60,347 nucleotides of DNA from Arthrobacter sp. H35-D1 (GTDB taxonomy: Bacteria > Actinomycetota > Actinomycetes > Actinomycetales > Micrococcaceae). Each line of letters starts with the position of its first letter. Position 1 is the stretch's first letter. The stretch spans positions 1-60,347 of the forward strand of contig NZ_JASISP010000025.1 in the NCBI RefSeq assembly GCF_030063185.1. Direction: 5' to 3'. The notes beneath the pieces are model-generated. The model searched no databases. It had not been told where the DNA came from and saw nothing but the letters and a program-made list of their open reading frames with translations. Positions 9,817-26,212 of this stretch are shown here, piece after piece. Position numbers and translations under genes: made by a program.

Positions 9817-9817
9817 A

Positions 9818-10738: not shown

Positions 10739-10760
10739 TGGTGGGTGTCCTCCTGTTTGA

Positions 10761-12198: not shown

Positions 12199-12204
12199 GG
12201 CCGT

Positions 12205-12251
12205 GGGGCCTCCAAACAGAATCGAACTGTTGACCTTCTCATTACGAGTGA
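12205..12251. repeat. attL: 47-bp copy of the tRNA-Thr 3' half
   Basis: This 47-bp sequence is identical to 26166-26212. It corresponds to the tRNA from the anticodon loop to the 3' end and includes no 5' half, so it is the chromosomal remnant left by integration. On the minus strand it continues as C-CCA-CGG, so the original chromosomal gene may have encoded its own CCA. Confidence 0.93.
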
Positions 12252-12864
12252 TACTTCCCAGCACATGAGGCAGACAAAAAGACTGAAAACTACAGCGTTT
12301 AGGCTGACATGTGAGTACTACAAATGTCTATGAATCATAGAAAAGTGTGTTCAGAATGTGTTCACAGTACTGCTGTTGGCTGCACTACACAAACGGCGAT
12401 TCCAACCCCACAGGATCGAATGCATTGGAATACTGGCGCGTGCTCGTATTCTTTGCCGCAACGGGTTCCAAGTTCATTACAATGCCGAGGATGACACGCC
12501 GAGATGAGCCGACACGCCACAGTCTTTTTTGTGGCCAAGTACTCCACAGGCTGTGGACGGGTCGAAATTATGTGCTAGAAACCAACGATTTTTCGTATAC
12601 CTGCCTGTGGACAGTCGGTGCATAAACTACAAGGATGTAATACATCATGTAGTGGTGGAAATGAATGTCAGGCACAAGATGTAGTCTTATGGGGCAAGCA
12701 AGAACCCCGGTTGCAAACGTAACCGAAAAAGGTTCAGCAGGTGACCGGGGCTCTAGTTATCTTGGACAGATACTAAGACCTTACATCGTGACGGGTGGGC
12801 GAGCTAAATGGTTCGAGCACTCCCACGATGACATGTCCCTGTGCTGGCAGATTGGAAGATTGAC
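12252..12864. other. 613 bp of element DNA with no convincing gene
   Basis: Low-GC DNA with stops in all frames every 50-70 codons. The only frame of note, 12665-12868 on the plus strand, has no ribosome site and atypical composition. A palindrome at 12626-12653 is described separately. The left edge, next to attL, may include integrase arm-binding sites. Confidence 0.5.
12626..12653. promoter_or_regulatory. nested palindrome, possible operator
   Basis: ACTACA at 12626-12631 pairs with TGTAGT at 12648-12653, and inside it GATGTA (12634-12639) pairs with TACATC (12641-12646). A further GATGTAGT occurs about 30 bp downstream. Size and symmetry fit a repressor site upstream of the small gene at 12865, but no matching copy was found near the element's repressor gene. 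Confidence 0.35.
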
Positions 12865-13035
12865 TTGACTAAGCCAACTCTCAAACCCGGCAACGACGCT
12901 CCTAGGACGGCCATCTACCAGCAGGTAGGGCCTCGTGGAGGGGTGACAGATCGGATTGTGCATTCCGACCGTGGGGAGACGATGCCCCCGACCCAGAAGC
13001 CCGGTCAGGGATACAAGCCAGTTCGCAAGAACTAG
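12865..13035 (+). CDS. small YjzC-like protein (56 residues)
   Basis: TTG start at 12865 with GGAAG six bases upstream; a GTG at 12841 is in frame but has no ribosome site. The sequence holds the pattern KPGNDAPRTAIYQQVGPRGG followed by ERG-type and PPTQKPGQGYK segments, which matches the small YjzC family (KPG, P..G.Y..VGP.G, .G...P). The role of YjzC proteins is unknown. A clear terminator follows its stop, which supports it as a real single-gene unit. It is the leftmost gene of the element. Confidence 0.6.
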   Translation: MTKPTLKPGNDAPRTAIYQQVGPRGGVTDRIVHSDRGETMPPTQKPGQGYKPVRKN

Positions 13036-13047
13036 GCAATGATCTTC

Positions 13048-13077
13048 AGCGGCCCCACCGAGACGATGGGGCCGCTG
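13048..13077 (+). terminator. hairpin terminator after the YjzC-like gene
   Basis: CAGCGGCCCCA (13048-13058) pairs with TGGGGCCGCTG (13067-13077), starting 12 bases after the stop codon, followed by TGGTTCTC. Confidence 0.7.
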
Positions 13078-13189
13078 TGGTTCTCGCACGACCGAGACGA
13101 CTGCATTAGTAGCGGTGCATACCTGAGGTCTTCTGATGGCGTTTGGGATGCGAAAGTGTGTCCGTATTGCGGCGTCTGAGGGGCGTCTT

Positions 13190-13405
13190 TTTGCTCACCA
13201 AATACGTTTGGTGAGCAAATTGCCGACATGGTGACAACGCCAAGACATTGATTGGTGAGCAAGTGGTGAGATAAAAAAGCCCTGAGTAGTGCTCAAAGTA
13301 CGTTGCTCACCACTCACCATTTGCTCACCACTGACTCACCAAATACCGCCCAATCATCTCACCACCACCACCCGATCACCGTAGGTGTGAGGAGTGGTGA
13401 GATAA
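13190..13405. repeat. cluster of TTGCTCACCA / TGGTGAGCAA repeats, candidate origin or partition site
   Basis: A perfect 13-bp inverted repeat, TTTGCTCACCAAA (13190-13202) and TTTGGTGAGCAAA (13207-13219), starts the cluster. Further copies of the core lie at 13252-13262, 13303-13312 and 13320-13330, with shortened CTCACCA or TGGTGAG cores at 13263-13270, 13312-13319, 13334-13343, 13357-13364 and 13394-13405. Both orientations occur and spacing is often 10-12 bp. This is the arrangement of iterons or a partition centromere. The element encodes replication proteins at 21993-23841, so an origin is expected somewhere within it. Confidence 0.7.
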
Positions 13406-13661
13406 GTGAATAGTGAATAGAAACAAACTGACAAATAGGTCGAAGGCAAGAGGATAAATGAACGGCCACTGTTCCCCGGCATGAAGTCAGTCCGTTATTA
13501 CTCAGCTGGTTCATTGCATGAGATCGCCGACCAAGTGGCGTTTGCTGTCCCCAGTACTCGATGAGCACCCCACTATCAAGGGCACATCGCTGGGCGGCAA
13601 TGGCAGACGTCAATGGGTTGCCCCACGCGTCCAATGGGCCGTTGTATGCGTATTCACTCAT
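13359..13661 (-). CDS. doubtful small ORF in the origin-like region
   Basis: 100 codons starting MSEYAYNGPLDAWGNPL. The first half reads like protein; the last part runs into the short repeats and does not. A frame upstream (start about 13816, MYTSWIFHT) ends with a TGA overlapping this ATG by four bases, the junction style used by the element's real operons. Neither start has a good ribosome site. Listed because of the overlap; it may be chance. Confidence 0.25.
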   Translation of the reverse strand: MSEYAYNGPLDAWGNPLTSAIAAQRCALDSGVLIEYWGQQTPLGRRSHAMNQLSNNGLTSCRGTVAVHLSSCLRPICQFVSIHYSLISPLLTPTVIGWWW

Positions 13662-13994
13662 GACGATGATTCTGGCGTCTGACGTTGTTCTGCACGATCA
13701 GGTGACCCCTGTGTCTGGGCTATGTACGCTTGACGATTCTCAGCATCTGTTGGAGGGAAAAAGCACGACGGAGGGCCGTTAGTGGGACAGGTGTGGAAAA
13801 TCCACGAGGTGTACATAATGCGTGTACCCGAACGCTCCGGGCCGCTTTGTGACCCCTGGGGGAGGGTTGACCAGGGGGGATGGTTTGGCACCTCGTTGCG
13901 TCGTCGTTTGGGTCAGGGATGCAGCGTAAGACATGCAGGCATGGGCAGCAGACGTCAGCATGGTCGTCGTGCATGATGACATGGTCATGCATAT

Positions 13995-14387
13995 GTTGGC
14001 ACGTGTCAGAGCACAGCAGATCGTTGGCACATCACGTCATGGTTGCGGGTACAGATGACAAGGTCAACAGCACGGGATCAGGAACGCATCGCCAGCAGTG
14101 ACGGCACAGACGCCTTGGATACGTGCGTATGTTCACACGTGCACATATACAGGCATCGTCAGTGTTGGCACGTCAATGGCACAGGCAACATGAGGCGTCA
14201 CAGTATCGGACAACCATCGACGGGCAGGGAATGATTCTCGCCAGCCAAGCCACTACTTCGTCAACGCCCAGGCGATGCCAACACCTATTGCAATCGTCCG
14301 CATTGGCACGCGTGAGACCCCGAGCAACTGCATGCAAGCAAGTGCCAGCCATTGCGTACTCTGCCGTTGTCAGCGTTCGAGTGCCAA
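13995..14387. repeat. scattered GTTGGCAC / GTGCCAAC repeats, second iteron-like cluster
   Basis: Direct copies of GTTGGCAC occur at 13995-14002, 14023-14030 and 14164-14171, with TTGGCAC at 14303-14309 and ATGGCAC at 14176-14182. Inverted copies are ATGCCAAC at 14275-14282, GTGCCAG at 14342-14348 and GTGCCAA at 14381-14387. The whole interval lacks a convincing gene. The repeats are irregular, so this is weaker than the cluster at 13190. Confidence 0.5.
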
Positions 14388-14768
14388 TGCGCGAACCGGA
14401 CGCACGGGAACCAGCCCCTCGACCATGAACAGCGAAAATTGACCCGTGCATGCCCACCTGACAAGTACGGCAGGGATTCTTGGGCAACGTCTCATAAATG
14501 AAAACGGGAAAAGGATCGACTCAGTGCAATGGGGCGTTTCTCTTCACGTCTGCGCATAGAACATCATGCAATCGTTGAGGAAGCGTTACAGACAGTGGAA
14601 TAGCGAAGTGAGGTATCGACTCGCACGCGCAACTCTCGAGCATCAGGGCAGCGGTTACGGACGTCACAGGGATAGGTGTTCTGATTCTCGTCAATTGTGC
14701 AACACGTTCTCATTTATCCACCACTCGACCCCATCCAACTAAATGAACGGGGTCAGGGGGTACTTGCT
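14388..14768. other. gene-free stretch of the element
   Basis: No frame of useful length with a ribosome site was found on either strand. Together with 13036-14387 it makes about 1.7 kb of mostly non-coding, repeat-bearing DNA, which is notable in an otherwise tightly packed element. Confidence 0.5.
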
Positions 14769-14945
14769 TTAGGGGAACATCGTCAGTCGGGCAACTTCTT
14801 CGTTGTCGAAGGCGAAGAACGCATGGATCACACCGTGTGATGTCGTGATGTACGCAGATCCGTCGTCTTCAATTTCAACTTCTGTGTTCGGCCCGAAAAT
14901 TTCGGTGGCAAAGTCACCTGCGTGAATCATCATATTTCGTGTCAT
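14769..14945 (-). CDS. small acidic protein (58 residues), unknown
   Basis: ATG at 14945 overlaps the stop of the preceding gene (TAATG) and GAGG lies nine bases upstream. The peptide starts MTRNMMIHAGDF and is acidic (TEVEIEDDGSAYITT), with a short hydrophobic stretch HGVIHAFFAF; it reads like a small beta-rich domain. It is the last gene of a three-gene unit with the genes at 14945-15103 and 15100-15387. No family recognised. Confidence 0.65.
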   Translation of the reverse strand: MTRNMMIHAGDFATEIFGPNTEVEIEDDGSAYITTSHGVIHAFFAFDNEEVARLTMFP

Positions 14946-15103
14946 TAGTTTTGCCTCACAGCTTTGTCGTGGGTCACCAAATAGGTGTGGGAGATTCCGG
15001 TGAGTGTTGCCTCGTACCGGTTCATGTTGATGTACAAGACGGAAACGACGTGGCCCGGGTACAGCATGGCCATATCGTCAAGGATCAGTTCCTCCGGGGT
15101 CAT
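14945..15103 (-). CDS. small protein (52 residues), unknown
   Basis: ATG at 15103 overlaps the stop of the upstream gene by four bases (ATGA), and GGAG-like sequence precedes it. The peptide starts MTPEELILDDMAMLYPGH and continues VVSVLYINMNRYEATLTG, which reads like a small OB- or SH3-type fold. Coupling at both ends supports translation. No function assigned. Confidence 0.65.
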   Translation of the reverse strand: MTPEELILDDMAMLYPGHVVSVLYINMNRYEATLTGISHTYLVTHDKAVRQN

Positions 15104-15387
15104 GCCTTGACCGTCTTTGCAGCAGCAGCGCGTTCCTTGCGACAGGCAGCGCGTGCTTTCTTGCCAGCGGCACCTTTGGATTCATGGATGCATTCGGTGT
15201 GCGACGTGCGGACGGTTTCCTCTGCAGAGGTCTTGGTCGTTGCAACGGGGGCGGGAGTCGTTGCCTTTGCAGGTGTTGCCTTCGTCGCAGGGGTCTTGGT
15301 CGTTGCCTTCACAGGCACTGCAACTACCTTGGCAGTCGGTGTCTTTGCGGGGGCAACAGCCTTGGTTGCGGGTGATGTGGTGGTCAT
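15100..15387 (-). CDS. Ala/Lys/Thr/Pro-rich basic protein (95 residues)
   Basis: ATG at 15387 with AAGGA ten bases upstream. The first 55 residues are a low-complexity chain of PATKA, PAKTP and PVKATT units, like the basic tails of histone H1-like and actinobacterial DNA-binding proteins. The end (residues 65-95) has two Cys and a basic helix (KKARAACRKERAAAAK). It could bind DNA or RNA, but this is composition-based inference. It heads a unit of three small genes and is transcribed away from the gene at 15559. Confidence 0.7.
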   Translation of the reverse strand: MTTTSPATKAVAPAKTPTAKVVAVPVKATTKTPATKATPAKATTPAPVATTKTSAEETVRTSHTECIHESKGAAGKKARAACRKERAAAAKTVKA

Positions 15388-15558
15388 TTAGATCGTGTCC
15401 TTAGTCGTTGTTTGTATCGTTCCTTCGGATCGATATAAGAAATGTAAGAGACGCAGCAGAAGCTACCCAAGGACTATCTGCGACGTGGGCGGCTTGAATC
15501 GTATTGGAAAGTCTGACGAGAGGAACTTTTGTCTGTACCGATGGGTAGGCTTGGAAAC

Positions 15559-16371
15559 ATGACTGAGAAATGGGTGCCCCCAGCAATATCGAACGAGGAA
15601 TATGAGCGGCTAACTGCAATCGAGGTTGGCTTCCCCGACTACGTCAGGAATCAAGTGGAGAGCTGGGTCGTAGACAGCGCTTCCTCCAGGGGGCAGTTTG
15701 CCCACGCACTACCTAGATTCTTATCCCGCCACATGAAGCGGGTGTTCTCGTTGGACTACTCAGGATTCTTGTTGCAGGTCCATCAGCTTGAAGATGACGA
15801 ATTGGCCAACGTCATAGATTGCATGTTGTTCCATGGCTTAAAAACGGCGAGTGTGTACGACTTGGGAAAGGTGCTGGCTGAGAGTCGTGCTGGGTGGGTA
15901 TTGACCTCGGACGGCAGAGGACGTACGCGGGTGACTGCGGCGCAACCCAGTGGTGTCATTCAGGCGCTTGAGGGTGTAATGAACAAGACGGCGAAAGCGG
16001 GTGCATTGCTGGGGGAAGCCTTCGAAGCTGCATATGGAACCTCGACCAACCCGAACCACGCCTATGACTTGAGCGTAAAAGCCGTAGAGACACTAGCCTG
16101 CCCGGCTTTCATCCCGAACAACACCACTCGCGCAACCCTTGGCACGGTGATCAAGCACCTAGAGCAGAAGAATGTTTCCTTGCCTTTGGTTGAGAAAAAT
16201 GCGGATCACAGGGAGACGCTGACCAAGATGATGCGGCTGCTTTGGGAGGGTGGTCAGCGTCACGGGGAAGAGACATATGAGCATGTTTCGCTTGGTGGGG
16301 CACGGACCGCTCATGCGCTGGCAACGTGCCTAGTTTCGATGATTCACGAGGACGTGATCACGGTAGTTTGA
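15559..16371 (+). CDS. unknown accessory protein, possibly abortive-infection (HEPN/Abi) related
   Basis: 270 residues from the ATG at 15559 (GGAA five bases upstream); alternative starts at 15541 (ATG) and 15529 (TTG, after AGAGGAA) would add 6-10 residues. Mostly helical. The C-terminal part reads RLLWEGGQRHGEET, then ARTAHALATCLVSMIHEDV, which resembles the conserved end of Abi-type C-terminal domains (an arginine-histidine-glycine motif followed by an alanine-rich helix). In that family the domain is HEPN-like and acts on RNA. The resemblance is by eye and weak. It is the only plus-strand gene in the cargo half, between two minus-strand operons, and has lower GC than the chromosome. Confidence 0.6.
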   Translation: MTEKWVPPAISNEEYERLTAIEVGFPDYVRNQVESWVVDSASSRGQFAHALPRFLSRHMKRVFSLDYSGFLLQVHQLEDDELANVIDCMLFHGLKTASVYDLGKVLAESRAGWVLTSDGRGRTRVTAAQPSGVIQALEGVMNKTAKAGALLGEAFEAAYGTSTNPNHAYDLSVKAVETLACPAFIPNNTTRATLGTVIKHLEQKNVSLPLVEKNADHRETLTKMMRLLWEGGQRHGEETYEHVSLGGARTAHALATCLVSMIHEDVITVV

Positions 16372-16572
16372 ACCCGGTAGCCATCCAGGCATTTGATCCA
16401 GTGGTAGGGAGGACTACGTGCGCCGCTCAGGCTTGAGCCCTTGCTGAAAGGTCACGATCGTGACGTTGTGCGTGGTCACGTCCGTTCAATCCCTGGGCAC
16501 GCCTGTCGGTGCGTCACTGGAGTTTCGTGTGTCATTGCTCGGCGACAAAATGATGGCAGCTGTCAGACGCGC
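16372..16572. other. intergenic segment with a perfect 14-bp palindrome
   Basis: GTCACGATCGTGAC at 16451-16464 is a perfect palindrome, followed by a further GGTCACGTCC at about 16477. It lies between the converging ends of the genes at 16371 and 16573 and could be a protein-binding site or part of a weak bidirectional terminator. Confidence 0.4.
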
Positions 16573-17841
16573 TCAGTGCGCTGATTGGGGAGGCGCAGAA
16601 TCTCTCCATGCCGTCAGTGCGTCAGCCGGTTCGTCATTTGGCTCCCCATTGACGTGGACCAGCTGTTCAAGGGTGTAGACGAATTTGCTTTCTCCCGTGG
16701 CACCTTCGTATGTCGTGATCTCTGTCAGCGTTGCGTCGTACTCATCTCCAAGGGTCGCTCGTGAAACCTGATGGTCAGCTGCCTCAGAGACCGTCCCTTG
16801 ATACTCAACATCTGTTTCAACATCCCGGAGCCCAAAACGCTTACGGTTCGAATTAGCGGCGAATAGCACCATGCGAGAACGAATCTCCACTGGCTCCTGA
16901 GCCGTTATGCCCTCAAGTAGTTTGGTAAGTTGTTGCAATTTCTCCGCACTTAGTTTGGCAATGCGACTTCCGAAGTTGGGACTACCTGCGGTAATTGAAA
17001 CGTCGCCATTGGTTAGCGATAGTTCTCTGATCAACTGTCGATAGCTCCGTGCGCCCCTAGGCTGCAATTTGGAGACGCTAGCGGGGAGTTCCACGTCCTC
17101 GAGTGCAACTCCTGCAAGGGTTACAAGGTGATCAACGGCGCTGGAAAAGGGAGACCCACCGAAAAGGTCTTGACCGTCAGTGGATGCGATCCCGAGAACG
17201 AAACTTGCAGCGGTAAGGGAAACAAGATCAGACGCTGCTGCGTTTGTGATGCTGCTGGGTAGTGGACCGGCCTGCGGTGGTGTGTCGTCAATTTCCAGAG
17301 CGCTGAAGTTGTCCAGCACCGTTTGCAGCGCAAGCAGGATTCCACCAATACGACGTGTCGGGGCCTCCGTGCGGAAATACTCCGGCAAATGAACTCGGAG
17401 ATCCAATCGCGTACGTCCCTCTTGGACAGCTGTCCGTTCGAGTTCCAAAGGTGAAGCGGCGGTATCAGTCGTGGGCGTATCAATGTCTAAACCAAAGTCG
17501 GCGTCGGGCAACCAATCTTCGAGAATATCGGACTTGGCCAGTGTCTTTACTTCGTCCCCGTCTGTACCGGCATGGGGGAGATTTGCTAGATAAACGAACC
17601 CTTCTGCATGGAGAAAAGCGTCTCGCAGCTTCACGCCACCCGAACGCACAGCCGTTAGCCGGGTTGGTGATACAGGGGCGTACAACCAAAGATCGTGGTC
17701 ATCTCCCTCGCTGGCCCAAGTAGCGATATACGACTGTTCGGTTGCTGAACGGCAAGAGAAAATACGGGGTCCGTCGTAGTCGACGAATACCTCGACTATT
17801 TCCAACTCCCCAAGGAACGATCCGACTGGCAACCAGCTCAT
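16573..17841 (-). CDS. DUF6575-like protein, cargo of the integrated element
   Basis: 422 residues. The N-terminal block (about 1-100) starts WLPVGSFLGELEIVEVFVDY and continues DGPRIFSCRSATEQSYIATWASE; it resembles the DUF6575 family of bacterial accessory proteins, recognised from memory. A helical middle and a C-terminal domain with PVEIRSRMVLFAANSNRKRFGLR follow. No signal peptide, membrane segment or known catalytic motif is visible. Its ATG overlaps the stop of the 176-residue gene by four bases, so the two are made together, and with the DUF4352-like gene they form a three-gene unit. Function unknown. Confidence 0.7.
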   Translation of the reverse strand: MSWLPVGSFLGELEIVEVFVDYDGPRIFSCRSATEQSYIATWASEGDDHDLWLYAPVSPTRLTAVRSGGVKLRDAFLHAEGFVYLANLPHAGTDGDEVKTLAKSDILEDWLPDADFGLDIDTPTTDTAASPLELERTAVQEGRTRLDLRVHLPEYFRTEAPTRRIGGILLALQTVLDNFSALEIDDTPPQAGPLPSSITNAAASDLVSLTAASFVLGIASTDGQDLFGGSPFSSAVDHLVTLAGVALEDVELPASVSKLQPRGARSYRQLIRELSLTNGDVSITAGSPNFGSRIAKLSAEKLQQLTKLLEGITAQEPVEIRSRMVLFAANSNRKRFGLRDVETDVEYQGTVSEAADHQVSRATLGDEYDATLTEITTYEGATGESKFVYTLEQLVHVNGEPNDEPADALTAWRDSAPPQSAH

Positions 17842-18368
17842 TCTTTTACCTCAAACGAGGTCCATTGGACGTCATTCTCGGGCCGCCACCAAGTCCTATG
17901 TGTTTTGTTGCCTTTTGACGGAGTGGCTTGCATCAGGCCGGACCCGTCGATGGACCCAGCTGCTATCGACTTATTCCTGAAAGGGGGAATGGACTTTCGG
18001 GTCCTCTCAGCGTCTTCCTTGGTGTCGAAAACACTCAGGCCCATGGACATGCAAAGACGATCCTCTTCGTAATCCTTGAACCTCGCAGGCTTCAAAGCAT
18101 AACCGCTGACGAAATCCTTGGGATTGGGTTGACTACCTTCTACCAGCCGAAAAACGGCACCAGACGAGGGCTCGGCTTCTTGGGGAGGGCAAGAAGCTGG
18201 GTACTCGTTTGGCCACTCAGTAGGGGTCTCCTGGTCCTCGGCATTCGGCATACTGTGAAGTGTAGTTCGCATCCTGTAGTCGGCTAAATGCGTTGGATGC
18301 CCAATTTGTAAGCGGGAATCGTTTGTCTGGTCCTCAGAGTTGTCGAGGCTCGTCTGGACAGTCGTCAT
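17838..18368 (-). CDS. 176-residue protein, partner of the DUF6575-like gene
   Basis: ATG at 18368 overlaps the stop of the DUF4352-like gene by four bases, and its own TGA overlaps the next start. The N-terminal 90 residues are polar and probably disordered. The core (about 90-176) includes GAVFRLVEGSQPNPKDFVSGY and SIAAGSIDGSGLMQATPSK, ending in HRTWWRPENDVQWTSFEV. It reads as a small globular domain with a conserved tryptophan-rich end. No family recognised. Double coupling suggests that the three products act in a fixed ratio or a complex. Confidence 0.7.
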   Translation of the reverse strand: MTTVQTSLDNSEDQTNDSRLQIGHPTHLADYRMRTTLHSMPNAEDQETPTEWPNEYPASCPPQEAEPSSGAVFRLVEGSQPNPKDFVSGYALKPARFKDYEEDRLCMSMGLSVFDTKEDAERTRKSIPPFRNKSIAAGSIDGSGLMQATPSKGNKTHRTWWRPENDVQWTSFEVKE

Positions 18369-18985
18369 TTCAAGTTGATTGTGGCCGATTTGCCGAAAAG
18401 CGTGTCTTTGATCGTGACGACGTTCGGAGTCTTGTCGGTAGGCACATCGAAGTAGATGCTGCCCTTGACCTTGAGTCCCGGGTTGATTTTGTCCAGAAAT
18501 CCTGATGATTCATCGTCGTTGCTTGCCTTGATGTTCACCCATGAGTCTGTGCTGTACTCGATCTCGCCTGATAAGAGTTTGAAGTCGTCAAAATCCAGCC
18601 TCTCGGCCTTGTTGGCAATATTCGCGGCTGTGATGGACAGCTGACAAAAATGACCCTTGGCGATTTCCTTGGTCACTTCGTACTGCCCCAGCGAGGGTAT
18701 GCCGCACTCATATCCGGTGACGACGTACTCGAACTTCTTGGATTGCACCGGTTGACCGATTGCAAAGGTAGTTTGTGTGGCAGGTTTAGTCTCCACTGCT
18801 AGAGCCGCAGTTGACTGTTCATGACCGGCACCTGCGGGGGAATCGTCGGGCGATGAACTTCCATTGGTCAGCGGCACCACGACGAAAACGGCGATCAGGC
18901 ACGCTAGGACTATGAGTAGCGTCCTCGGACTCTTCTTCCGGCTCTGAGATGGCGGCTTGTTAGGTGGCGGCGAGTAGAAGACCAA
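18365..18985 (-). CDS. membrane-anchored DUF4352-like protein
   Basis: 206 residues. A basic proline-rich start (PPPNKPPSQSRKKSPR) precedes one membrane helix (TLLIVLACLIAVFVVVPL, about 22-40), a Ser/Gly/Ala linker and a C-terminal beta-sandwich of the DUF4352 type (about 70-206; FAIGQPVQSKKFEYVVTGYE through ITAANIANKAERLDF and GLKVKGSIYFDVP). The topology puts the sandwich outside the cell. DUF4352 domains occur in many lipoproteins and membrane proteins of unknown role. It is the first gene of the three-gene cargo unit. Confidence 0.75.
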   Translation of the reverse strand: MVFYSPPPNKPPSQSRKKSPRTLLIVLACLIAVFVVVPLTNGSSSPDDSPAGAGHEQSTAALAVETKPATQTTFAIGQPVQSKKFEYVVTGYECGIPSLGQYEVTKEIAKGHFCQLSITAANIANKAERLDFDDFKLLSGEIEYSTDSWVNIKASNDDESSGFLDKINPGLKVKGSIYFDVPTDKTPNVVTIKDTLFGKSATINLK

Positions 18986-19086
18986 GGAATTTCCCCCAAT
19001 ATTTTCACTGCAATCGATGATGTTCCCTGATACTAACCACGAGGACTGACAACCCCATAAGCGGGTACTTCATTCACCGAGGCCCC

Positions 19087-19425
19087 TTAGTCATACAGGC
19101 CCACTTCACGGATACGCTGGGTGAGTTTCTCCTGGCGTAGGCGTCGTGATTCTTGGATAGCTTTGCGTAGCGCGGGATCGTCTCGCAGGCTCAGCAACTG
19201 GTCAGTCGTGATGCCTGGGGCAGCGTTGAGATACTCGAACTCTGGTGGATCGAAGGAGTTGCCCTGAGTGCCTACGCGTGGGACGTAGGCGTGGACTCGG
19301 TTAGCACCTTGACGACGGGCAAATGCTCGTTCGCTCTTTCCCTGATTCTTACAGGGCCTCTCTCCACAAATTATGGCGCCGACTCGCTTGGTCGTTATAA
19401 GACAGCCGCAGTATTTACAGTTCAT
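19087..19425 (-). CDS. zinc-ribbon protein A (112 residues)
   Basis: Start ATG at 19425, with AAAGGA six bases upstream; an in-frame ATG at 19464 lies inside the preceding gene and lacks a ribosome site. The N-terminus carries CKYCGC and, about 15 residues later, ICGERPC, a four-cysteine zinc-ribbon pattern. The rest is helical and basic (SRRLRQEKLTQRIREVG). The pattern fits a small nucleic-acid-binding or HNH-adjacent phage protein, but I see no nuclease residues. Its start overlaps the stop of the second zinc-ribbon gene. Confidence 0.7.
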   Translation of the reverse strand: MNCKYCGCLITTKRVGAIICGERPCKNQGKSERAFARRQGANRVHAYVPRVGTQGNSFDPPEFEYLNAAPGITTDQLLSLRDDPALRKAIQESRRLRQEKLTQRIREVGLYD

Positions 19426-19736
19426 CGTGTTTCCTTTGTCTCGGTGCGACGGTGATTTTTCCAAGCACCACTGTTCTTCTGGCTGCGTCGTCGGATCGTC
19501 TTTGCCTTGGTCTTACATGCAATCGAGCATCGTGCGGTCGTTGATGGTTCACCACAGATTTCACAGGCCATGGGCGACTCATGGTTGGCAACGGGACGAC
19601 CAAAAGACTTTTCCCGTCTGGAGCGTTCACGTTGGGTTTTACTGGTGCGGCGGCATCGTTGGTCGGGACAGGTCAGCCGTTGTCTGCCTTGGATGGACAC
19701 GTGGCAAATGATGCATGAATTTCTCGCTGGGCGCAT
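19422..19736 (-). CDS. zinc-ribbon protein B (104 residues)
   Basis: Very basic protein with two cysteine clusters: CIICH plus CPDQRC in the first 30 residues, and CEICGEPS plus CSIACK around residues 58-73. Each pair looks like a treble-clef or ribbon zinc site, so the protein is probably a two-finger nucleic-acid binder. Its TGA overlaps the start of zinc-ribbon protein A by four bases, which shows that the two are a unit. The CxxC spacing resembles that of A, so they may be diverged duplicates. Confidence 0.7.
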   Translation of the reverse strand: MRPARNSCIICHVSIQGRQRLTCPDQRCRRTSKTQRERSRREKSFGRPVANHESPMACEICGEPSTTARCSIACKTKAKTIRRRSQKNSGAWKNHRRTETKETR

Positions 19737-20015
19737 GGGTATAAACGTAGGAAATTATCGGGTTCTCGGCAGGGTGGGAGACTACACGCGTGTGTGCGTC
19801 TGCAGGCGTCCGTTGACTGCTCGACGTGCAAACACTCGTGAACGTGTGTGTTGGACGCCTCTACAGCGCTTTTTGGCTCTGTTGTCGTTCGCCTGGGCGT
19901 GATGAGTGATCAATGATCGACGAATGCATTGGAATGTTGTGCGGGAGGATTGCATCAATCCACCACGAAACCCCGTACCTCAGATGGGGCACGGGGTATC
20001 GCAGTTTATTGGTGT
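19737..20015. other. intergenic stretch between the early operon and the zinc-ribbon genes
   Basis: No credible gene on either strand. It holds the terminator at 19970-19997 and presumably a promoter for the two zinc-ribbon genes. Confidence 0.5.
19970..19997 (-). terminator. terminator of the element's early operon
   Basis: ACCCCGT (19970-19976) pairs with ACGGGGT (19991-19997), 19 bases beyond the stop at 20016 on the minus strand, followed on that strand by TTTCG. Confidence 0.55.
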
Positions 20016-21014
20016 CTAGCTGATGTGGCTGAGGTAGCTTTCACCCAGCGAGGACTTTTTGGTGTTCGGTGCTTTGCGGTATCCGTCCTGACCCCCTGCT
20101 GAGTAATCGCTGGTGGGCGTCGTTCCCGTGATTTCGTAGTATTGGTTGCGGGATTCTTCCATGCCTTTGAGACGGTCGAAGCTCACGGGCTGTGCAGCGC
20201 TGTTGGCAGCGTTCCAAGCGGCAAGCAGTTTGCCGATGGATGGCACCCACAACTGGCTGTTGGTGCAGACGTCCAGCAGGTAAGCGATGTGTTGATCATT
20301 GCTGACCGGCATCACTTCGCGTTTGTGCGGGTACTTTGCCGACTCACAATTGGTCAGCCAGTTGTTGTAGCGAACCACATGGTCATCTTGGTCATGGGCG
20401 GCACGGGGCGTGTACGCCTGGGATCGCTGATCATTCCAGAATGCGGAGTCATCCAAAGAGTTGCGGAGGAATCCGGCTTCATAGATGAAGTTGAGTTGTC
20501 CCGCGTCGAGGCATTGCCGGGTGATCGTCACCTGTGCACTGCGGATTTCAATGTAGCGCTCGACAAGCTTCGTCGTGTTGCGCCACGCTTTGATCTGTTC
20601 GCTGGTGCCTGCTTCTAGGATGCGCTGAACGTCGCTGAGTGAACCCAGTGAATCCGCGGTGTCAACGACTTCGGAAATAAGTTCCTGAAGTTCATGGTCA
20701 AGGTATGCGAGAGCCTTGTCCGCGTGATCCTGAACAGCTTCGGTGCGCAGGCGTTCAACCTGTGCCTTTGCTGCTTTCAGCTTTTCGCCGCGAATCTGAA
20801 TGTTGTGAATTGCGCGGAGACGGTCATCTCCCGCGCTGGTCACGTCGAGAGGAAACGGTTCCCCTGCGAGTGCAAGGTCAACGAAATCAATTTCCACGGC
20901 TGGGGGGACACTTTGGTTGTTGGTGCGACTTTCCCGGGTAATGCTGTCCAGTGCAGTGGTGAGGGCGTCGTGGTCGCCCAAGAGGGAGTATGCGGAGTTG
21001 GTGATCGTGGTCAT
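20016..21014 (-). CDS. hypothetical helical protein, last gene of the early operon
   Basis: 332 residues from the ATG at 21014, preceded by AGAAGGA; a longer frame to 21059 overlaps the upstream small gene without a ribosome site. The sequence is strongly helical with coiled-coil potential around residues 75-140 (GEKLKAAKAQVERLRTEAV and following). No signal peptide, membrane segment or enzymatic motif. It resembles phage-type accessory proteins in composition only. It starts one base after the stop of the 58-residue gene. Confidence 0.7.
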   Translation of the reverse strand: MTTITNSAYSLLGDHDALTTALDSITRESRTNNQSVPPAVEIDFVDLALAGEPFPLDVTSAGDDRLRAIHNIQIRGEKLKAAKAQVERLRTEAVQDHADKALAYLDHELQELISEVVDTADSLGSLSDVQRILEAGTSEQIKAWRNTTKLVERYIEIRSAQVTITRQCLDAGQLNFIYEAGFLRNSLDDSAFWNDQRSQAYTPRAAHDQDDHVVRYNNWLTNCESAKYPHKREVMPVSNDQHIAYLLDVCTNSQLWVPSIGKLLAAWNAANSAAQPVSFDRLKGMEESRNQYYEITGTTPTSDYSAGGQDGYRKAPNTKKSSLGESYLSHIS

Positions 21015-21015
21015 G

Positions 21016-21192
21016 TTAGTTGTCCTTCTTGTTGGGGTGCATGGTTGCGTGCAATTCACGGCCTTTGGCGACCGAACTGGTGGGGCGGTTCTTCGTGCTG
21101 TTCGTTACGAAGTCCCTCGCCAATCTCTTGATCGAGACTCTTTCCTCGAACGTGCCATCCTTGACGGCTTCCATTGCTTCTCTGACGTTCAT
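21016..21192 (-). CDS. small basic protein (58 residues), unknown
   Basis: ATG at 21192 has GGAG seven bases upstream and overlaps the stop of the preceding gene (ATGA); its TAA is followed after one base by the next ATG. Starts MNVREAMEAVKDGTFEE and ends in a basic tail. Helical, no family recognised. Coupling on both sides strongly supports translation. Confidence 0.7.
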   Translation of the reverse strand: MNVREAMEAVKDGTFEERVSIKRLARDFVTNSTKNRPTSSVAKGRELHATMHPNKKDN

Positions 21193-21632
21193 TTAGTGCT
21201 CCTTTTGTTTTTGGTGAACTTCGACCACGGGTTTTCCCGAGTCAAGATTGGTGGGGCCTCGAGTTGGAGGGTCAAGAATTCTTGGATGTCCGGGTGTAGG
21301 GCCTTGATTTCATGCAGGCAGATCGACGATGCGCGGAGGTGGCCCTGTGGGGTGACTACGACCAGATCGAGGAAGAGTGAGTCAAGAAGAACACGGCCCA
21401 GAACCTCAACGTCCCCATTCATGAGGCCTGCCCAGTTGCGGTACTCCTTGAGCGTGTGGAAGTGGGACTTTGAGAAGTAGTCCCCATCGATAGCGACAAC
21501 ACGGCAGTTCGTGCTGGTCCAGACGTCAGCGGGAACGTACTCAAATGCGTTTCCGGGGTGATGGTCCCGACTGGGCGAAGTGCGCGATGGTACAGGCAAC
21601 CCGTGTGGGTTTATCAGTTGGTGGTTATTCAT
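21189..21632 (-). CDS. hypothetical protein (147 residues), element early operon
   Basis: Starts at 21632, overlapping the stop of the upstream gene by four bases, and itself overlaps the next start. A central stretch (VLGRVLLDSLFLDLVVVTPQGHL) looks like a beta-alpha core, with a polar N-terminal 35 residues. No catalytic motif or membrane segment. Unknown function; position suggests a replication or copy-control accessory. Confidence 0.65.
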   Translation of the reverse strand: MNNHQLINPHGLPVPSRTSPSRDHHPGNAFEYVPADVWTSTNCRVVAIDGDYFSKSHFHTLKEYRNWAGLMNGDVEVLGRVLLDSLFLDLVVVTPQGHLRASSICLHEIKALHPDIQEFLTLQLEAPPILTRENPWSKFTKNKRSTK

Positions 21633-21949
21633 GGTGTTACTCCTTCGGTGAGGATAAGTTGGGGGAGGTCGGAGGCTGACCCGGGGGCGCGGACAACATG
21701 GCCGTCGATCAGGCCGAGGAGCTCGTGCTGGTCGTCAAAGGTCACCCATGCAATCGGTTGGTCGAGTGGGCCAGTCGTCGACGGGATCTGTGCGTACACG
21801 GCAGACGTCAGCGGTACGGTGCCGAGCGTTCCTGTCACCATGCCGTTGACAAGCGGTGACAGAGTCACAAGCAGGTCTACAGCACCTTTCACGTGGGTGA
21901 CGCGGGATCGTCGCCGGGGCGGCGTATAAGGGGTTGGGTGGATATTCAT
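21629..21949 (-). CDS. hypothetical protein (106 residues), element early operon
   Basis: Follows the ATPase gene by about 43 bp. A basic proline-rich start (PTPYTPPRRRSR) leads into a small domain with alternating hydrophobic strands (AVDLLVTLSPLVNGMVTG and PIAWVTFDDQHELLGLIDG). Ends coupled to the next gene by an ATGA overlap. No family recognised. Confidence 0.65.
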   Translation of the reverse strand: MNIHPTPYTPPRRRSRVTHVKGAVDLLVTLSPLVNGMVTGTLGTVPLTSAVYAQIPSTTGPLDQPIAWVTFDDQHELLGLIDGHVVRAPGSASDLPQLILTEGVTP

Positions 21950-21992
21950 GGGAGTTCCTTTCAGTTACGAATGCAGTTGGGGGATTTGGACG

Positions 21993-23156
21993 CTAAGCAA
22001 GGAGTGCCGTCCCTTCAGCGGTAATTTGGTATAGGGCTGCACGGCCCGGATTCTCGGGTGTCAAGGGTTTTGCTTCGGCGATGAATCCCATGGCGACCAG
22101 ATTGTCTACGTGTCGCTTGGCAGTTGAAGGGGCCAGTTTTCTCGGCTTTGAATTGGCACAGATGGTCTTCATACCCACCCCTCCTGTTTCGGTGGACAAC
22201 ACATCAAGCACGGCACGGGGCAGACCAGAAATCTCGTCATCCGAACGGATCAGCGTGTGACCACTTGGGGCTTCAAGGCTGTACAAGAGTTTGCTCGGCT
22301 GGGTGGAGTCGAACACTGCCACTGCGATTGCTGCGGTTTGGTCGGAAGAACGAAAATCCGTTGAATGGCTACGGACCAGGCCCTCACGGTCTTTGCCTAC
22401 TCGTATTTCGATTTTCCCGACTCGGCCCACGGCAAGTTGTTGAGTCATCCTGGCTGTGTAAGCGGCTCCGGTAAGAAACGACATCTTCATTTGAGCGCCT
22501 AGAGCAAAGCGTCCTCGGCCATCTGAACTTTTAGTGACGTGGTCAATAAGGATGACCGCAGCACCCGTCTTTGACGCCAGCCGCAAAGGGAGTTTACGAC
22601 CCCACTTCATGGTGTCGCCGTTATCCATAGAGTTGAGCCCATAGACGTCGAAAGCAGCCGTTACCCCGTCAATGACAATGAGGTCGTAAACCCCGCCCAA
22701 GTGTCGTTGGAAGGCTTCCTCTTCTGCTTCACCAAAGGTTTCAGGGTCAAACTCGGGGCGAACGTACTTGAACCGCTTGAGGATGATCTCAGCGGTTGCA
22801 CCCATACCCAAGAGTCGTCCGATGACTGAAACTGCGTCGGATTCAAAATCGAGGAAAAGAACACGGCCGCCCGACTTGATAACCCTCACGCACTCGGCCT
22901 GGGCTATGAGCGACTTAGCCGACTCCGATTCACCGTGGAGCGAATGAACCTTGCCCGGGTAGAGCAGACGGACCCCATCGGAACGCCTCATCAGCTTGGG
23001 CCTCGTGGACTTTCGTGTTCCGTCCAGAATGTCCCTAACGTCTTCAGGGGACCATGACGGTCTCAGCCCATCAGCCTCAGCCACGATGGCCGCCAAAGAC
23101 ACTCGAGACGGTGTTTGAGATTTCCCAGTCGCCCAGGCCGATGTAGCTGGCCTCAC
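21993..23156 (-). CDS. RepA-like AAA ATPase / replicative helicase of the element
   Basis: Up to 387 residues. Walker A-type loop GESESAKS at residues 75-82, with the unusual acidic spacing found in RepA-family hexameric helicases; Walker B DLIVIDG near 157; a conserved IDHVTKS near 205. A C-terminal winged-helix-like part (about 310-385; RHVDNLVAMGFIAEA) could bind DNA. The start is uncertain: the ATG at 23156 overlaps the primase gene by 80 bp, while a GTG overlapping the primase stop also fits. Together with the primase-polymerase it would form the replication core. Walker A lysine (K81) and serine are intact. Confidence 0.8.
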   Translation of the reverse strand: MRPATSAWATGKSQTPSRVSLAAIVAEADGLRPSWSPEDVRDILDGTRKSTRPKLMRRSDGVRLLYPGKVHSLHGESESAKSLIAQAECVRVIKSGGRVLFLDFESDAVSVIGRLLGMGATAEIILKRFKYVRPEFDPETFGEAEEEAFQRHLGGVYDLIVIDGVTAAFDVYGLNSMDNGDTMKWGRKLPLRLASKTGAAVILIDHVTKSSDGRGRFALGAQMKMSFLTGAAYTARMTQQLAVGRVGKIEIRVGKDREGLVRSHSTDFRSSDQTAAIAVAVFDSTQPSKLLYSLEAPSGHTLIRSDDEISGLPRAVLDVLSTETGGVGMKTICANSKPRKLAPSTAKRHVDNLVAMGFIAEAKPLTPENPGRAALYQITAEGTALLA

Positions 23157-23841
23157 GGCTGAGTTGATTGATCAGACGGTGGTGCATTTTTTGTGGCATC
23201 TCAGACACACGTTGGAGACACCAATACAGATTTGCGTTTCGCTGGCCCTCAGGGGCGTTCGCAAGCGTCTGCATCAGCCCATTGATGGAATGTTTCGCCT
23301 GTCCTCCCGCGGCGTCTGTCCTGCGTAGCGGCGAGTCTGCTGGAGTGAGCATGTTCGCCAGCCACAACGGCAGTTCAAGCACAGATGCCTTCAGTAGGTA
23401 TTCATAACCCGGGGTGGGCGGTGCAATGACGTACCCGCCAGCAGCGCGGGTGTCGATGCCCTGGCCGAGCTTGCTCACTGTGTTCTTCACGGGATGACCA
23501 TCGATTGCATTGAAGTACACGTGTTTTCCACGCGGCGTCTTGACGACAGGCGTTTTGATGCGAGAGGTGCCCTCATTTTCGATCCACAGTCCAACGAATG
23601 TCTTCCACGCTTTGCGGGAGTCACAGTCGATGACGACCAAGTCGTTACGGCCACAGTCGACGGCGAACTGTTCGTTCCCCCTGAGGTTGAGCTGACTGAC
23701 GGGCGTCAGTGGTGCTGTCTTCCATGCGGGTACTATCGGTTTCTTGTTCTTTGTCTTGAAGCCCGTGAAATCAGGCATTTCTTGGCGAGGAGAGTGACCC
23801 GAGACGCTCGTCCTATCATTCTGTTGTGTTCGGTTGGTCAC
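23077..23841 (-). CDS. bifunctional DNA primase/polymerase (PrimPol) of the element
   Basis: 254 residues. Conserved archaeo-eukaryotic primase signatures are visible: DLVVIDCDS (metal-binding aspartates), VVKTPRGKHVYF, and GIDTRAAGGYVIAPP, the prim-pol hallmark. The enzyme lays down primers and can extend them, allowing plasmid-like replication. The C-terminal helical part (from about 190) is shorter than in fused primase-helicases, consistent with the helicase being the separate next gene. Start ATG at 23841, transcribed from the excisionase side. Such pairs occur in phage satellites, plasmids and actinomycete integrative elements. Confidence 0.88.
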   Translation of the reverse strand: MTNRTQQNDRTSVSGHSPRQEMPDFTGFKTKNKKPIVPAWKTAPLTPVSQLNLRGNEQFAVDCGRNDLVVIDCDSRKAWKTFVGLWIENEGTSRIKTPVVKTPRGKHVYFNAIDGHPVKNTVSKLGQGIDTRAAGGYVIAPPTPGYEYLLKASVLELPLWLANMLTPADSPLRRTDAAGGQAKHSINGLMQTLANAPEGQRNANLYWCLQRVSEMPQKMHHRLINQLSREASYIGLGDWEISNTVSSVFGGHRG

Positions 23842-23925
23842 CGTTTACACCTTTCTAATTAGTGATCAAGAGCCGGGTATTTAGTCGTTTCGGGTGAGTG
23901 CCCGGTTCTTTGGTGGCTTGTGTTG

Positions 23926-24147
23926 TTACTGCGCTGCAAGCGGGGTGTCAGTGCGAGTGAACTTCTTCGTCTTTTCCCAGGCCTCCAAATCCCGCACGTC
24001 GTAGCGGACCCTGCTTCCCAGTCGAATGAACACTGGGCCGCGTCCCTGAAATCGAAGCTGACCTGCGGTGCCTTTGGGCAATCCGTAACGCTCTTCGAAC
24101 TCCTTGCTGTCGATGTACCGGGGCAATTCATTTGTCGTGCGTGTCAT
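23926..24147 (-). CDS. AlpA/Xis-type excisionase or operon activator
   Basis: 73 residues. A short winged-helix protein: PRYIDSKEFEERYGLPKGTA (helix-turn-helix) then FQGRGPVFIRLGSRVRYDVRDLEAW, the typical MerR/AlpA-like ending with the tryptophan. Such proteins direct the integrase to excise the element and may activate early genes. It is the first gene on the minus strand, facing the repressor across 172 bp of control DNA, the classic phage switch arrangement. Confidence 0.88.
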   Translation of the reverse strand: MTRTTNELPRYIDSKEFEERYGLPKGTAGQLRFQGRGPVFIRLGSRVRYDVRDLEAWEKTKKFTRTDTPLAAQ

Positions 24148-24319
24148 GACGACACCTCCAATTTATGTAGCTCACTTTGTTGAGAACTCCTGATTTCCGG
24201 CGTTCCGGTTGACATCGCTTGTCGTTCACGTAGAATTTATAACGATGAACACAACATAATCACGAAAATTTGATTACGGCAAACACTGGAGCGCGAATAA
24301 ATGAAGGTAGGCTATCTGC
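24148..24319. promoter_or_regulatory. divergent control region between excisionase and repressor
   Basis: 172 bp between the two divergent genes. It holds the plus-strand promoter at 24209-24236 and AT-rich DNA at 24231-24300, unusually low in GC for this genome. Operators for the repressor should lie here; short ATAATC/GATTAC-type elements are visible, but no clear symmetric pair that I would commit to. Confidence 0.6.
24209..24236 (+). promoter_or_regulatory. sigma-70-type promoter for the repressor gene
   Basis: TTGACA at 24209-24214 and TAGAAT at 24231-24236 with a 16-bp spacer, about 84 bp upstream of the repressor ATG. The -35 box is perfect. Confidence 0.65.
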
Positions 24320-24814
24320 ATGGCAAACAAGACGATTGAAGAAGGCCCATCCGCTCGCACGGCTAGGGAGAACCTGAAGCGGATTCGAGAAGAGAAAGAC
24401 ATCACGTGGACGGTACTCAGCAACATGCTGGCGAAGGAGGGGCGCAAGATTCCACCGATCAGCATCAGGCGCGCTGAGGAGGGGGAACGTCGGTTAGACG
24501 TTGATGACCTCATGGCACTCGCGTTCGTTCTTGACGTCAGTCCTAACGAGTTGTTGCTCCCCGCAAAGGATTTCTCAGGGGTCGTTGAGGTTACCGGGCC
24601 GGGTGAACGGTCGAACGCGGAAGTGTGGGCATGGGCGATGGATGGCGCGGATATAGGGAGTCCTACCGCAGGATTCGCCAAAGGTACAGAGTTTTATGTG
24701 GACGACAACGATGTCCGCAATTCGCTCCAACAGGTGGCAGCGGTAACCGAAAGCGAAGCGTTCAGACAGGCAGTGCGTGATGCTGTCCGGGAGGCGTTGG
24801 CCGATGAAAAATAG
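24320..24814 (+). CDS. XRE/Cro-family repressor
   Basis: 164 residues. Residues 12-80 form an HTH_3-type DNA-binding domain (ARTARENLKRIREEKDITW, then ISIRRAEEGERRLDVDDLMALAFVLDVSPNELL). A C-terminal part with no peptidase motif (about 90-164) is probably for oligomerisation. It would silence the excisionase and replication operon on the opposite strand. There is no RecA-type autocleavage site, so induction must work differently, for instance through an anti-repressor supplied by a helper. Confidence 0.85.
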   Translation: MANKTIEEGPSARTARENLKRIREEKDITWTVLSNMLAKEGRKIPPISIRRAEEGERRLDVDDLMALAFVLDVSPNELLLPAKDFSGVVEVTGPGERSNAEVWAWAMDGADIGSPTAGFAKGTEFYVDDNDVRNSLQQVAAVTESEAFRQAVRDAVREALADEK

Positions 24815-24929
24815 TAGACGACCCTTACCAGCCGGACGAGGCGTACACATCGCGTCGCGCGTGAGCGGTCATGTGCCCGTGCAGATCACGTCAGATGCTC
24901 CACCAGACGATTGCATAATGTGGCGACGA

Positions 24930-24988
24930 GTTTACCCGTATTGCGTGCGTGCTCGTGCGTCAGACCCACTGAGAGTGGGCGGGTAAAC
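24930..24988 (+). promoter_or_regulatory. inverted repeat flanking the integrase start
   Basis: GTTTACCCG (24930-24938) is the exact complement of CGGGTAAAC (24980-24988), whose last base abuts the integrase ATG. The right arm overlaps the GGGCGGG ribosome-binding stretch. Folding would hide the integrase ribosome site in any transcript that reads through from the repressor gene. Confidence 0.45.
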
Positions 24989-26080
24989 ATGGCATCTGTG
25001 GTCAGTTACGAGACCAAGACTCAAGGCAAGCTGTGGATGGTTCGCTATCGAACTCCTGACCGTGTGCAGACTATGCAGCGGGGATTCAAGACCAAACGTG
25101 ACGCATTGCTATGGCTGTCAAACATGGAAGTCGCAAAATCGCGGGGTGAATACATCGGCAATGCTGCAGGGAAGATTGGCTTTGCTGAATGGGCTGAAGT
25201 TTGGTTCGATGCCCAGGTTCACCTGAAACCGACCACGCGATCGAATTACCGGCAGTGTCTGGACAAGCATGTGATCGCTCGATGGGGCGAGAGACAGATA
25301 GGAAGCATCACACACGGAGAGGTCCAAGCATGGATCAAACTGTTGGCACAGACCATGACGCCGTCTTCTCTTCGCATCCAATACCAAACCCTGTCTGCTG
25401 TCCTGAAACATGCAGTCCGGGATGGCCGGCTAGTGAAGAACGCGTGTGATGGTGTGAAGCTTCCGAAGATCGTGAAAAGAAAACATGGGTATTTGACCCA
25501 TGAGCAGGTTGCGGCACTTGCTGAAGAATGTAAGGACTACGGAGACGTGGTCCTTTTCCTTTCCTACACGGGTCTTAGGTATGGGGAAATGGCTGCGCTC
25601 AGGGTAGGTCGATTGAACATGCTGAGGCGACGGATTGACGTTGCCGAAGCTGTGGCGGACGTCAGGGGCACTCTTGAATGGGGAACCCCCAAGTCGCATG
25701 AGGCACGAAGCGTCCCTTTCCCAAAGTTTCTGGCCGAATCTCTTGCCCGGCGGTGTGACGGGAAAGGTCGAGATGACTTGGTGTTCACCGGCGCTAGAGG
25801 TTCCGTGCTTAGGGGGAACAATTTCAGGAAAAGGGTCTTCAACGACGCTGTTGAAAAGCTGATCGATGCTGACCCCGATTTTCCACTGATCACGCCTCAT
25901 GACTTGCGGCACACTGCGGCATCTCTAGCTATCTCTGCTCACGCAAACGTGAAGTCGATCCAACGCATGTTGGGCCATGCAGATGCGGCAATGACGCTGA
26001 ACACATACGCAGACTTGTTTGAAGATGATCTGGACGCTGTCGCTGACGCACTAGATGCAGCCTATAAGAAAATACTGTGA
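24989..26080 (+). CDS. tyrosine recombinase / integrase of the element
   Basis: 363 residues from the ATG at 24989; an in-frame extension to 24911 lacks similarity to the family. An N-terminal AP2-like arm-binding region (YETKTQGKLWMVRYRTPD), a SAM-like core-binding domain (about 60-150) and the catalytic domain are present. Catalytic residues: R197 (TGLRYGE), H304 and R307 (HDLRHTAAS), His of the LGHAD motif, and the tyrosine nucleophile Y340 (LNTYADLF). It integrates the element into the 3' half of tRNA-Thr, which lies 88 bp downstream. Complete and probably functional. Confidence 0.93.
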   Translation: MASVVSYETKTQGKLWMVRYRTPDRVQTMQRGFKTKRDALLWLSNMEVAKSRGEYIGNAAGKIGFAEWAEVWFDAQVHLKPTTRSNYRQCLDKHVIARWGERQIGSITHGEVQAWIKLLAQTMTPSSLRIQYQTLSAVLKHAVRDGRLVKNACDGVKLPKIVKRKHGYLTHEQVAALAEECKDYGDVVLFLSYTGLRYGEMAALRVGRLNMLRRRIDVAEAVADVRGTLEWGTPKSHEARSVPFPKFLAESLARRCDGKGRDDLVFTGARGSVLRGNNFRKRVFNDAVEKLIDADPDFPLITPHDLRHTAASLAISAHANVKSIQRMLGHADAAMTLNTYADLFEDDLDAVADALDAAYKKIL

Positions 26081-26117
26081 TCATGATGTGCTCACGCCTA
26101 TACTTCAGGGCATAAAA

Positions 26118-26160
26118 AAATCGTTGCATTGGCGTTTATTTCGCGTCAATACAACGATTT
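26118..26160 (-). terminator. element-supplied terminator for tRNA-Thr
   Basis: AAATCGTTG and ACGATTT arms with ATTGGCG/CGCGTCAAT inside form a long hairpin followed, on the minus strand, by a run of T residues (plus-strand AAAAAAA). It lies a few bases beyond the tRNA 3' end and replaces the chromosomal terminator that was displaced to 12157. Confidence 0.75.
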
Positions 26161-26165
26161 CAGTG

Positions 26166-26212
26166 GGGGCCTCCAAACAGAATCGAACTGTTGACCTTCT
26201 CATTACGAGTGA
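26166..26212. repeat. attR: 47-bp repeat inside tRNA-Thr
   Basis: Identical to 12205-12251. It spans the tRNA from the anticodon loop to two bases past the 3' end. Next to it the element copy has five G residues where the chromosomal copy has four, so the mature 3' terminus differs by one C. Confidence 0.93.

Follow-up and report, generated by a model that had tools for sequence, protein, structure and literature searches.

Boundaries and gene content of the element

The 60,347-nucleotide stretch of Arthrobacter sp. H35-D1 analysed here (contig NZ_JASISP010000025.1; hereafter the window) holds a 14.0-kb low-GC insert at positions 12205-26212, which is probably, though far from certainly, an integrated phage satellite resembling the phage-inducible chromosomal islands (PICIs). 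The insert is bounded by a perfect pair of 47-bp repeats. A letter check showed the left copy (12205-12251) to be identical to the right copy (26166-26212), which occupies the 3′ part of a tRNA-Thr(CGT) gene, the integration target (26164-26241; detected by ARAGORN and as Rfam RF00005). Repeats covering the 3′ part of a tRNA gene are usual for tyrosine integrases. GC content is 0.53-0.57 within the element versus mostly 0.60-0.70 outside; two further 1-kb dips (0.55) lie beyond it, at 42001-43000 and 8001-9000. These results bear out the coordinates, the perfect repeats and the tRNA-Thr insertion that an initial annotation had read from the letters alone.

The tRNA-Thr(CGT) gene adjoins the same right-hand gene in every one of the 23 genomes searched within the genus. 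To the left of the tRNA gene, three of the 22 other genomes (G016, G020 and G007) carry sequence that aligns with window positions 9947-11384, shortly left of the element; the corresponding DNA aligns further off (4.4-6.6 kb) in seven and has no match in 12, which indicates that the insertion spot is variable. The element is absent from comparable sites, and its integration is supported by this comparison. Also missing from G016, G020 and G007 is the 0.8 kb at 11385-12204, which contains a RibD-like gene (named by eye).

Next to the tRNA gene, a tyrosine integrase gene (24989-26080; PF00589, 4.8e-22, with PF14659 and PF14657) and a gene for an XRE-type protein (24320-24814; PF01381), which presumably acts as a repressor, lie together on the plus strand. 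Divergent from them, a minus-strand operon begins with a gene for an AlpA-like excisionase or regulator (23926-24147) and continues with those for a PrimPol-type primase/polymerase (23077-23841; PF09250, 1.7e-15) and a RepA-like AAA_25 ATPase (21993-23156; PF13481, 4.3e-9). The integrase, XRE, PrimPol and RepA-like proteins exceed the Pfam cut-offs; AlpA falls below its own (HTH_17, 22.1 of 27 bits) and was recognised by an excisionase match in PHROGs (phrog_66, 3.4e-7). Family searches thereby recovered the replication and mobility genes named in the initial annotation. Behind repA, the same strand encodes two conserved proteins of 106 aa (21629-21949) and 147 aa (21189-21632) with no match in Pfam or PHROGs, a small conserved protein of 58 aa (21016-21192; 40% identical to L023 12085-12246), a 332-aa protein that we call the marker protein (o347, 20016-21014), two small Cys-rich proteins (19422-19736, with sub-threshold matches only, and the conserved 19087-19425), a DUF4352 protein (18365-18985; PF11611, 2.2e-17) and a gene pair resembling the anti-phage system PD-T4-10. 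Among 396 genomes of the order, the 106-aa protein gave, besides its own genome, two weak partial matches only.

Pfam and PHROGs scans of 20 open reading frames (ORFs) of the element, with some short ORFs such as 21016-21192 and 13600-13782 lying outside the scan, gave no credible terminase, portal, capsid, tail, lysis, FtsK or relaxase family, in agreement with the initial annotation, which had seen no terminase, capsid, FtsK or relaxase gene. The sole head-and-packaging entry, phrog_5750 for the marker protein (E 0.21), was taken for chance. An NCBIfam scan of ten element proteins and a megablast search of 12252-24000 against plasmids led nowhere.

A same-order relative, its cargo and a putative origin

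RepA searches matched two of the 23 genus genomes and 18 of 395 genomes of the family, both counts including the genome studied here. The best RepA relative, in genome G376, belongs to a bounded element of about 14.8 kb whose integrase gene adjoins a tRNA-Ser(CGA) gene, a 24-bp identical copy of the end of that tRNA lying about 14.8 kb away. By tblastn, 12 of the 18 genes called in this element match the window element in the same order, which provides the related copy that the initial annotation had proposed to look for. Amino acid identities are 48% for the integrase, 44% for XRE, 38-40% for AlpA, 50% for PrimPol and 67% for RepA, followed by 58, 34 and 40% for the three proteins behind RepA, 32% for the marker protein, 43% (31-43% over part of its length) for the second Cys-rich protein, 43% for the DUF4352 protein and, past the cargo, 55%. 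A 13th gene, the Lys/Ala-rich one, matches over 66 aa in another frame than the one called, the ORF in the wrong frame having given no match to the window protein at 15100-15387. The family scan of the G376 element covered four proteins and was complemented by likeness to those of the window. Genes of the relatives were called by a small script that chose at least one wrong frame (the Lys/Ala-rich gene of L033), and many were named by eye; those with a family scan or a comparison are the ones that were checked. The G376 genome also holds a second RepA element (L024 7393-16514), which carries a serine-recombinase-like gene (by eye) and encodes a tail-fibre-like protein (phrog_4549, 6e-5) and a DUF6602 protein.

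This relative bears directly on the idea of a decayed prophage reduced to its early region. The integrase, XRE, AlpA and primase-type genes are phage-like and the stretch at about 13.4-14.7 kb is poorly coding, as decay would have it, but another genome has the same layout at nearly the same length, the shared ORFs are open, RepA is at most 36% identical to its matches in phages, and the marker protein has no phage match. We consider such decay improbable, and a lone prophage remnant was rejected because the same gene order recurs in a second member.

Between the shared genes the two elements differ in cargo. In the window, ORFs at 17838-18368 (start perhaps 18251) and 16573-17841, both on the minus strand, overlap by 4 bases in the order A-B. 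The A protein, a putative antitoxin, matches PADLOC PD-T4-10_A over residues 58-127 of 176 (3e-5). The B protein, a putative toxin of 422 residues with DUF6575 (PF20215, 2.3e-22), matches PD-T4-10_B at residues 13-129 (3.5e-8) and PDC-M63B at residues 191-394 (1.2e-10); searched against PDB sequences, it returned one designed protein only (E 0.27). PMC9519451 describes PD-T4-10 of Escherichia coli as a toxin-antitoxin system whose two ORFs overlap and which confers protection from T-even phages. The pair in the element resembles it in having two overlapping genes in A-B order with weak matches to A and B, and departs from it in that the likeness of the B protein to PD-T4-10_B is confined to residues 13-129, its residues 191-394 matching PDC-M63B. 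As judged from these matches, the two genes form a probable anti-phage toxin-antitoxin pair. In G376 the slot holds two genes without a counterpart in the window, which encode an MmeI-type restriction-modification enzyme (PF20473, 1.6e-43) and an AbiJ_NTD4 protein (PF18863, 2.4e-19); three more unmatched genes sit at the far end of that element. Cargo of the window element further includes a 276-aa protein (15541-16371, plus strand) of no credible family, whose C-terminal part is similar to the AbiJ-like protein of G376 at E 0.018 only. Defence-like genes are present in both members, which makes this region a candidate slot for exchangeable anti-phage genes. One could also imagine a defence island with defunct mobility genes, kept for the PD-T4-10-like pair, as both members carry defence-like cargo and we saw no sign of current mobility here; this scenario is very improbable, given that replication genes, regulators and iterons are common to the members (32-67% protein identity) while the cargo has been replaced.

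The remaining genes are small. Beyond the cargo, the minus strand encodes the Lys/Ala-rich protein (15100-15387; 39% identical over 66 aa to L033 483-635, inside the ORF at L033 408-647), a 52-aa product predicted as an ORF only (14945-15103) and a conserved 58-aa protein (14769-14945; 55% identical to L033 644-820). A YjzC-like protein is encoded on the plus strand at 12841-13035 (phrog_3202, 3.2e-13; PF14168, 22.9 of 25 bits). The gene-poor region 13400-14700 contains several GGCAC-type words, seen by eye.

An iteron cluster at 13190-13402 is a putative replication origin. Ten of the 16 copies of TGGTGAG/CTCACCA in the whole window fall within 13194-13401, 0.9 kb inside the left repeat; in G376, 10 of the 11 copies in the 19-kb locus fall within 3783-3988, 0.2 kb inside the far repeat. 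Each cluster contains one perfect palindrome, with 13-bp arms in the window and 11-bp arms in G376. The window palindrome folds as DNA at z -5.6, and a palindrome pattern with a 3-base spacer did not match it because its spacer is 4 bases. We then ranked 300-bp stretches within each of 95 loci of RepA relatives by repetition of any 7-base word (61 of the loci come from a viral collection, and some represent the same place twice, such as L030/L037 and L027/L034). The stretch at the repA stop ranks in the top 5% of its locus in 73 of the 95 and is uniquely highest in 58, the other 22 loci lying below the top 5%. From this peak we infer that such repeats are the target of RepA and as a rule lie next to its gene. 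The words themselves vary between elements, yet they peak at the repA stop in those 73 loci, and the set is ready for pairing RepA C-terminal domains with DNA sites. At the repA stop of G376 there is no peak, every other stretch scoring at least as high; in the window, the repA stop of which (21993) lies outside the 95-locus statistic, the only strong repeat cluster is that at 13.2 kb. The iterons are found 8.6 kb (window) and about 10.5 kb (G376) from repA.

The marker protein, RepA relatives and isolated virion genes

Searched by tblastn against 50,697 phage and 72,556 plasmid records, the marker protein found no match, and two distant members of its family likewise had none in phages. Profile searches found the family in seven of 395 family genomes and six of 394 class genomes, both sets drawn evenly from larger groups and both including the present genome; a script search added L028, for a total of 13 loci. 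A weak first-round match in L024 (2.5e-4) was lost in later rounds and is not counted. A terminase small subunit (TerS) is encoded in five of the 13 loci (L028, L139, L141, L143 and L150). Those of L143 and L150 fall below the Pfam cut-off and were identified by PHROGs (3.5e-12 and 2.9e-16), while those of L028 and L141 score better against phrog_226, a family labelled minor tail protein, than against the PHROGs family for TerS. L143 additionally holds genes for an HNH protein and a tail protein. Large tape-measure proteins occur in two of the 13 loci, just behind the marker relative: L151 1835-6623 (phrog_2337, 3e-272) and L153 1312-6611 (phrog_4197, 3e-97), the latter with one small ORF in between. 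No other virion gene was recognised by eye in these two neighbourhoods save an HNH-like protein in L153. An FtsK query found no homologue in the 12 marker loci other than the window. The marker may be specific to this class of elements: it had no match in the phage and plasmid collections and occurs in 13 loci, some of which may not be satellites. Modelled alone in AlphaFold, the protein reached a mean predicted local distance difference test score of 39, which is unusable, and a search of its alignment against PDB sequences yielded nothing. Scans of viral contigs with RepA alone, the marker alone or a two-row marker alignment, and of genome contigs with a two-row RepA alignment, led nowhere.

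Relatives of RepA also occur in small elements with isolated virion genes. L028 spans 10.9 kb between 55-bp repeats (87% alike) and carries its TerS gene; L030 spans 8.4 kb (5711-14113) between 33-bp repeats (91% alike) and carries an HK97-type capsid gene. L124, the RepA of which is only 31% identical, has homologues of the window's repressor and AlpA together with a capsid gene, an HNH protein and a Panacea-GNAT pair. By eye, a single HK97-type capsid gene is the only virion gene recognised in either of the small int-XRE-AlpA-RepA elements L030 5711-14113 and L124 7643-16958. L025 (15.0 kb, with L179) and L026 (16.0 kb, with L178) are bounded and tRNA-integrated, and encode RepA, terminase large subunits (TerL; phrog_2, 1.8e-37 for L025) that are 68% identical to each other, and large proteins of about 900 residues that are 34% identical, that of L025 matching a tape-measure family weakly (0.0012) and that of L026 nothing. 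No further portal gene was recognised in L028, L030, L124, L025 or L026, and no capsid gene in L025 or L026, mostly by eye. L025 and L026 are possibly satellites that borrow the head. Classification of L024-L027 as ordinary prophages was rejected on the same ground, no portal or capsid being recognised in the bounded L025 and L026, with genes scanned in part and L024 and L027 unbounded.

Over 97 RepA loci, a virion-type gene lies within 10 kb in 24 and an FtsK gene in two. These counts are not frequencies in nature, because the elements under study supplied the queries and a viral collection supplied most of the loci. They nonetheless bear on another explanation, namely an integrative non-conjugative plasmid, or an actinomycete integrative and conjugative element (AICE) whose FtsK-type transfer gene was lost or never present, replicating as a circle and moving with a conjugative helper. 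Members of the RepA family indeed occur on plasmid pKRAD02 (12.9 kb) and on a plasmid of Streptomyces that also has an FtsK gene, repeats peaking at repA in both, and AICEs share tRNA sites, Prim-Pol and Rep with the element. Frankia elements without tra or rep have moreover been described as remnants or mobilizable elements in PMC3218068. On the other hand, no FtsK or relaxase family appears in the scanned ORFs, FtsK is as rare around the marker and RepA relatives as the above counts show, and the marker protein is without a plasmid match and often accompanies TerS. We regard this explanation as unlikely. The initial annotation had left the choice between a phage satellite and a mobilisable island; the same-order relative and the isolated virion genes lend support to the former, and the latter gained none, no relaxase or FtsK family appearing in the 20 scanned ORFs.

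The scattered virion genes could reflect an actinobacterial satellite lineage built on one RepA-iteron replicon, each branch of which owns a different virion fragment (TerS; capsid; TerL with a tape-measure-like protein). The present branch would own none, would rely on the satellite-specific 332-aa protein to capture helper particles, and would have moved its origin to the attachment end. We put this forward as a tentative scheme that is rather less likely to be right than wrong.

The satellite interpretation and its comparison with known elements

The interpretation of the element as a phage satellite draws on the same-order relative with bounded ends and different cargo, on marker loci with TerS or tape-measure genes, on RepA relatives with isolated virion genes, and on a layout that fits most of the PICI description in PMC6092414. 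Several results weigh against it. Neither this element nor that of G376 has a recognised gene for TerS, capsid or any other packaging function. In six of the 13 marker loci, among them these two elements, no virion gene was recognised, the family scans covering L140 and L142 partly, L152 by a single protein and L154 not at all. Several marker matches are weak (L143, E 5.7e-4) or extend over only part of the profile (L151-L154, E 6e-8 to 8e-5). The RepA family also occurs on plasmids, 72 of the 97 RepA loci matched none of the virion and FtsK queries, and the putative origin is not next to rep. Positions 12250-16400 gave no DNA match by blastn against phages, so no shared cos site was found; hijacking of a cos site through shared DNA was rejected on this basis, although a short site could have escaped the search. 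Finally, no resident helper phage was seen in the genome of H35-D1, in which the two families tried, TerL (phrog_2) and TerS (PF05119), had no match; in control genomes they matched 11 of 14 and three of 14, respectively. A helper would accordingly come from outside or have a terminase of other families.

Helper induction, packaging and defence can be pictured as follows, reasoning from gene content. A helper phage would lift XRE repression, whereupon AlpA and the integrase would excise the element as a circle. RepA would open the iterons and PrimPol would prime copying. Helper particles would package the element DNA; since no TerS was recognised, packaging would use the terminase of the helper via a site borne by the element, or else a TerS that escaped recognition. 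The marker protein may act in packaging or in interference with the helper, perhaps together with the proteins of 106 and 147 aa, and the PD-T4-10-like pair may shield both the host and the satellite against competing phages.

Little has been written on the satellites of actinobacterial phages. A literature search covering few subscription journals found no paper on satellites of Micrococcaceae phages, and a survey of 2406 complete actinobacterial genomes (PMC10023795) goes no further than to suppose that satellites or PICIs could be numerous among small prophage-like elements. With its defined ends, marker protein and candidate origin, the present type of element makes this supposition testable in Micrococcaceae; the initial annotation had overlooked the marker, the iteron cluster and the defence-like cargo. 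Single virion genes scattered over relatives that share one replicon would, in addition, be informative on the gain and loss of virion parts by satellites.

Among known classes, AICEs use tRNA sites, Prim-Pol and a Rep protein according to PMC3218068. The element is like them in tRNA integration, tyrosine integrase, Prim-Pol and Rep and unlike them in lacking an FtsK/SpoIIIE-type Tra protein among the scanned ORFs, and membership was rejected because no FtsK family was found. The RepA plasmid pKRAD02 has a RepA relative (37% identical) and repeats; unlike the element, it is a free plasmid with the repeats directly at repA. Capsid-forming PICIs (cf-PICIs) and MulchRoom and MiniFlayer, satellites of Streptomyces phages, carry their own capsid and packaging genes, none of which was found here. 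The latter two are likewise actinobacterial satellites, which PMC10690885 presents as having no known primases, whereas our element has a primase and no capsid genes. The plan of PICIs given in PMC6092414 comprises an int-repressor pair, an excision-primase-rep operon, an origin after rep and an optional terS, in about 15 kb. The element is not filed as a PICI because its putative origin, instead of following rep, lies 8.6 kb away from it and close to the attachment site, and because no TerS was found, although terS is optional by that account. In other respects it is similar to the Gram-positive type: in size (14.0 kb here and about 14.8 kb in G376), in int beside the putative repressor on the same strand and divergent from the rest, in a divergent excision-primase-rep operon (if AlpA provides the excision function), in the lack of recognised structural and lytic genes among the 20 scanned ORFs, in its integrase and attachment repeats in a specific site, and in its possible phage-resistance cargo. 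These similarities suggest that it most likely works like a PICI.

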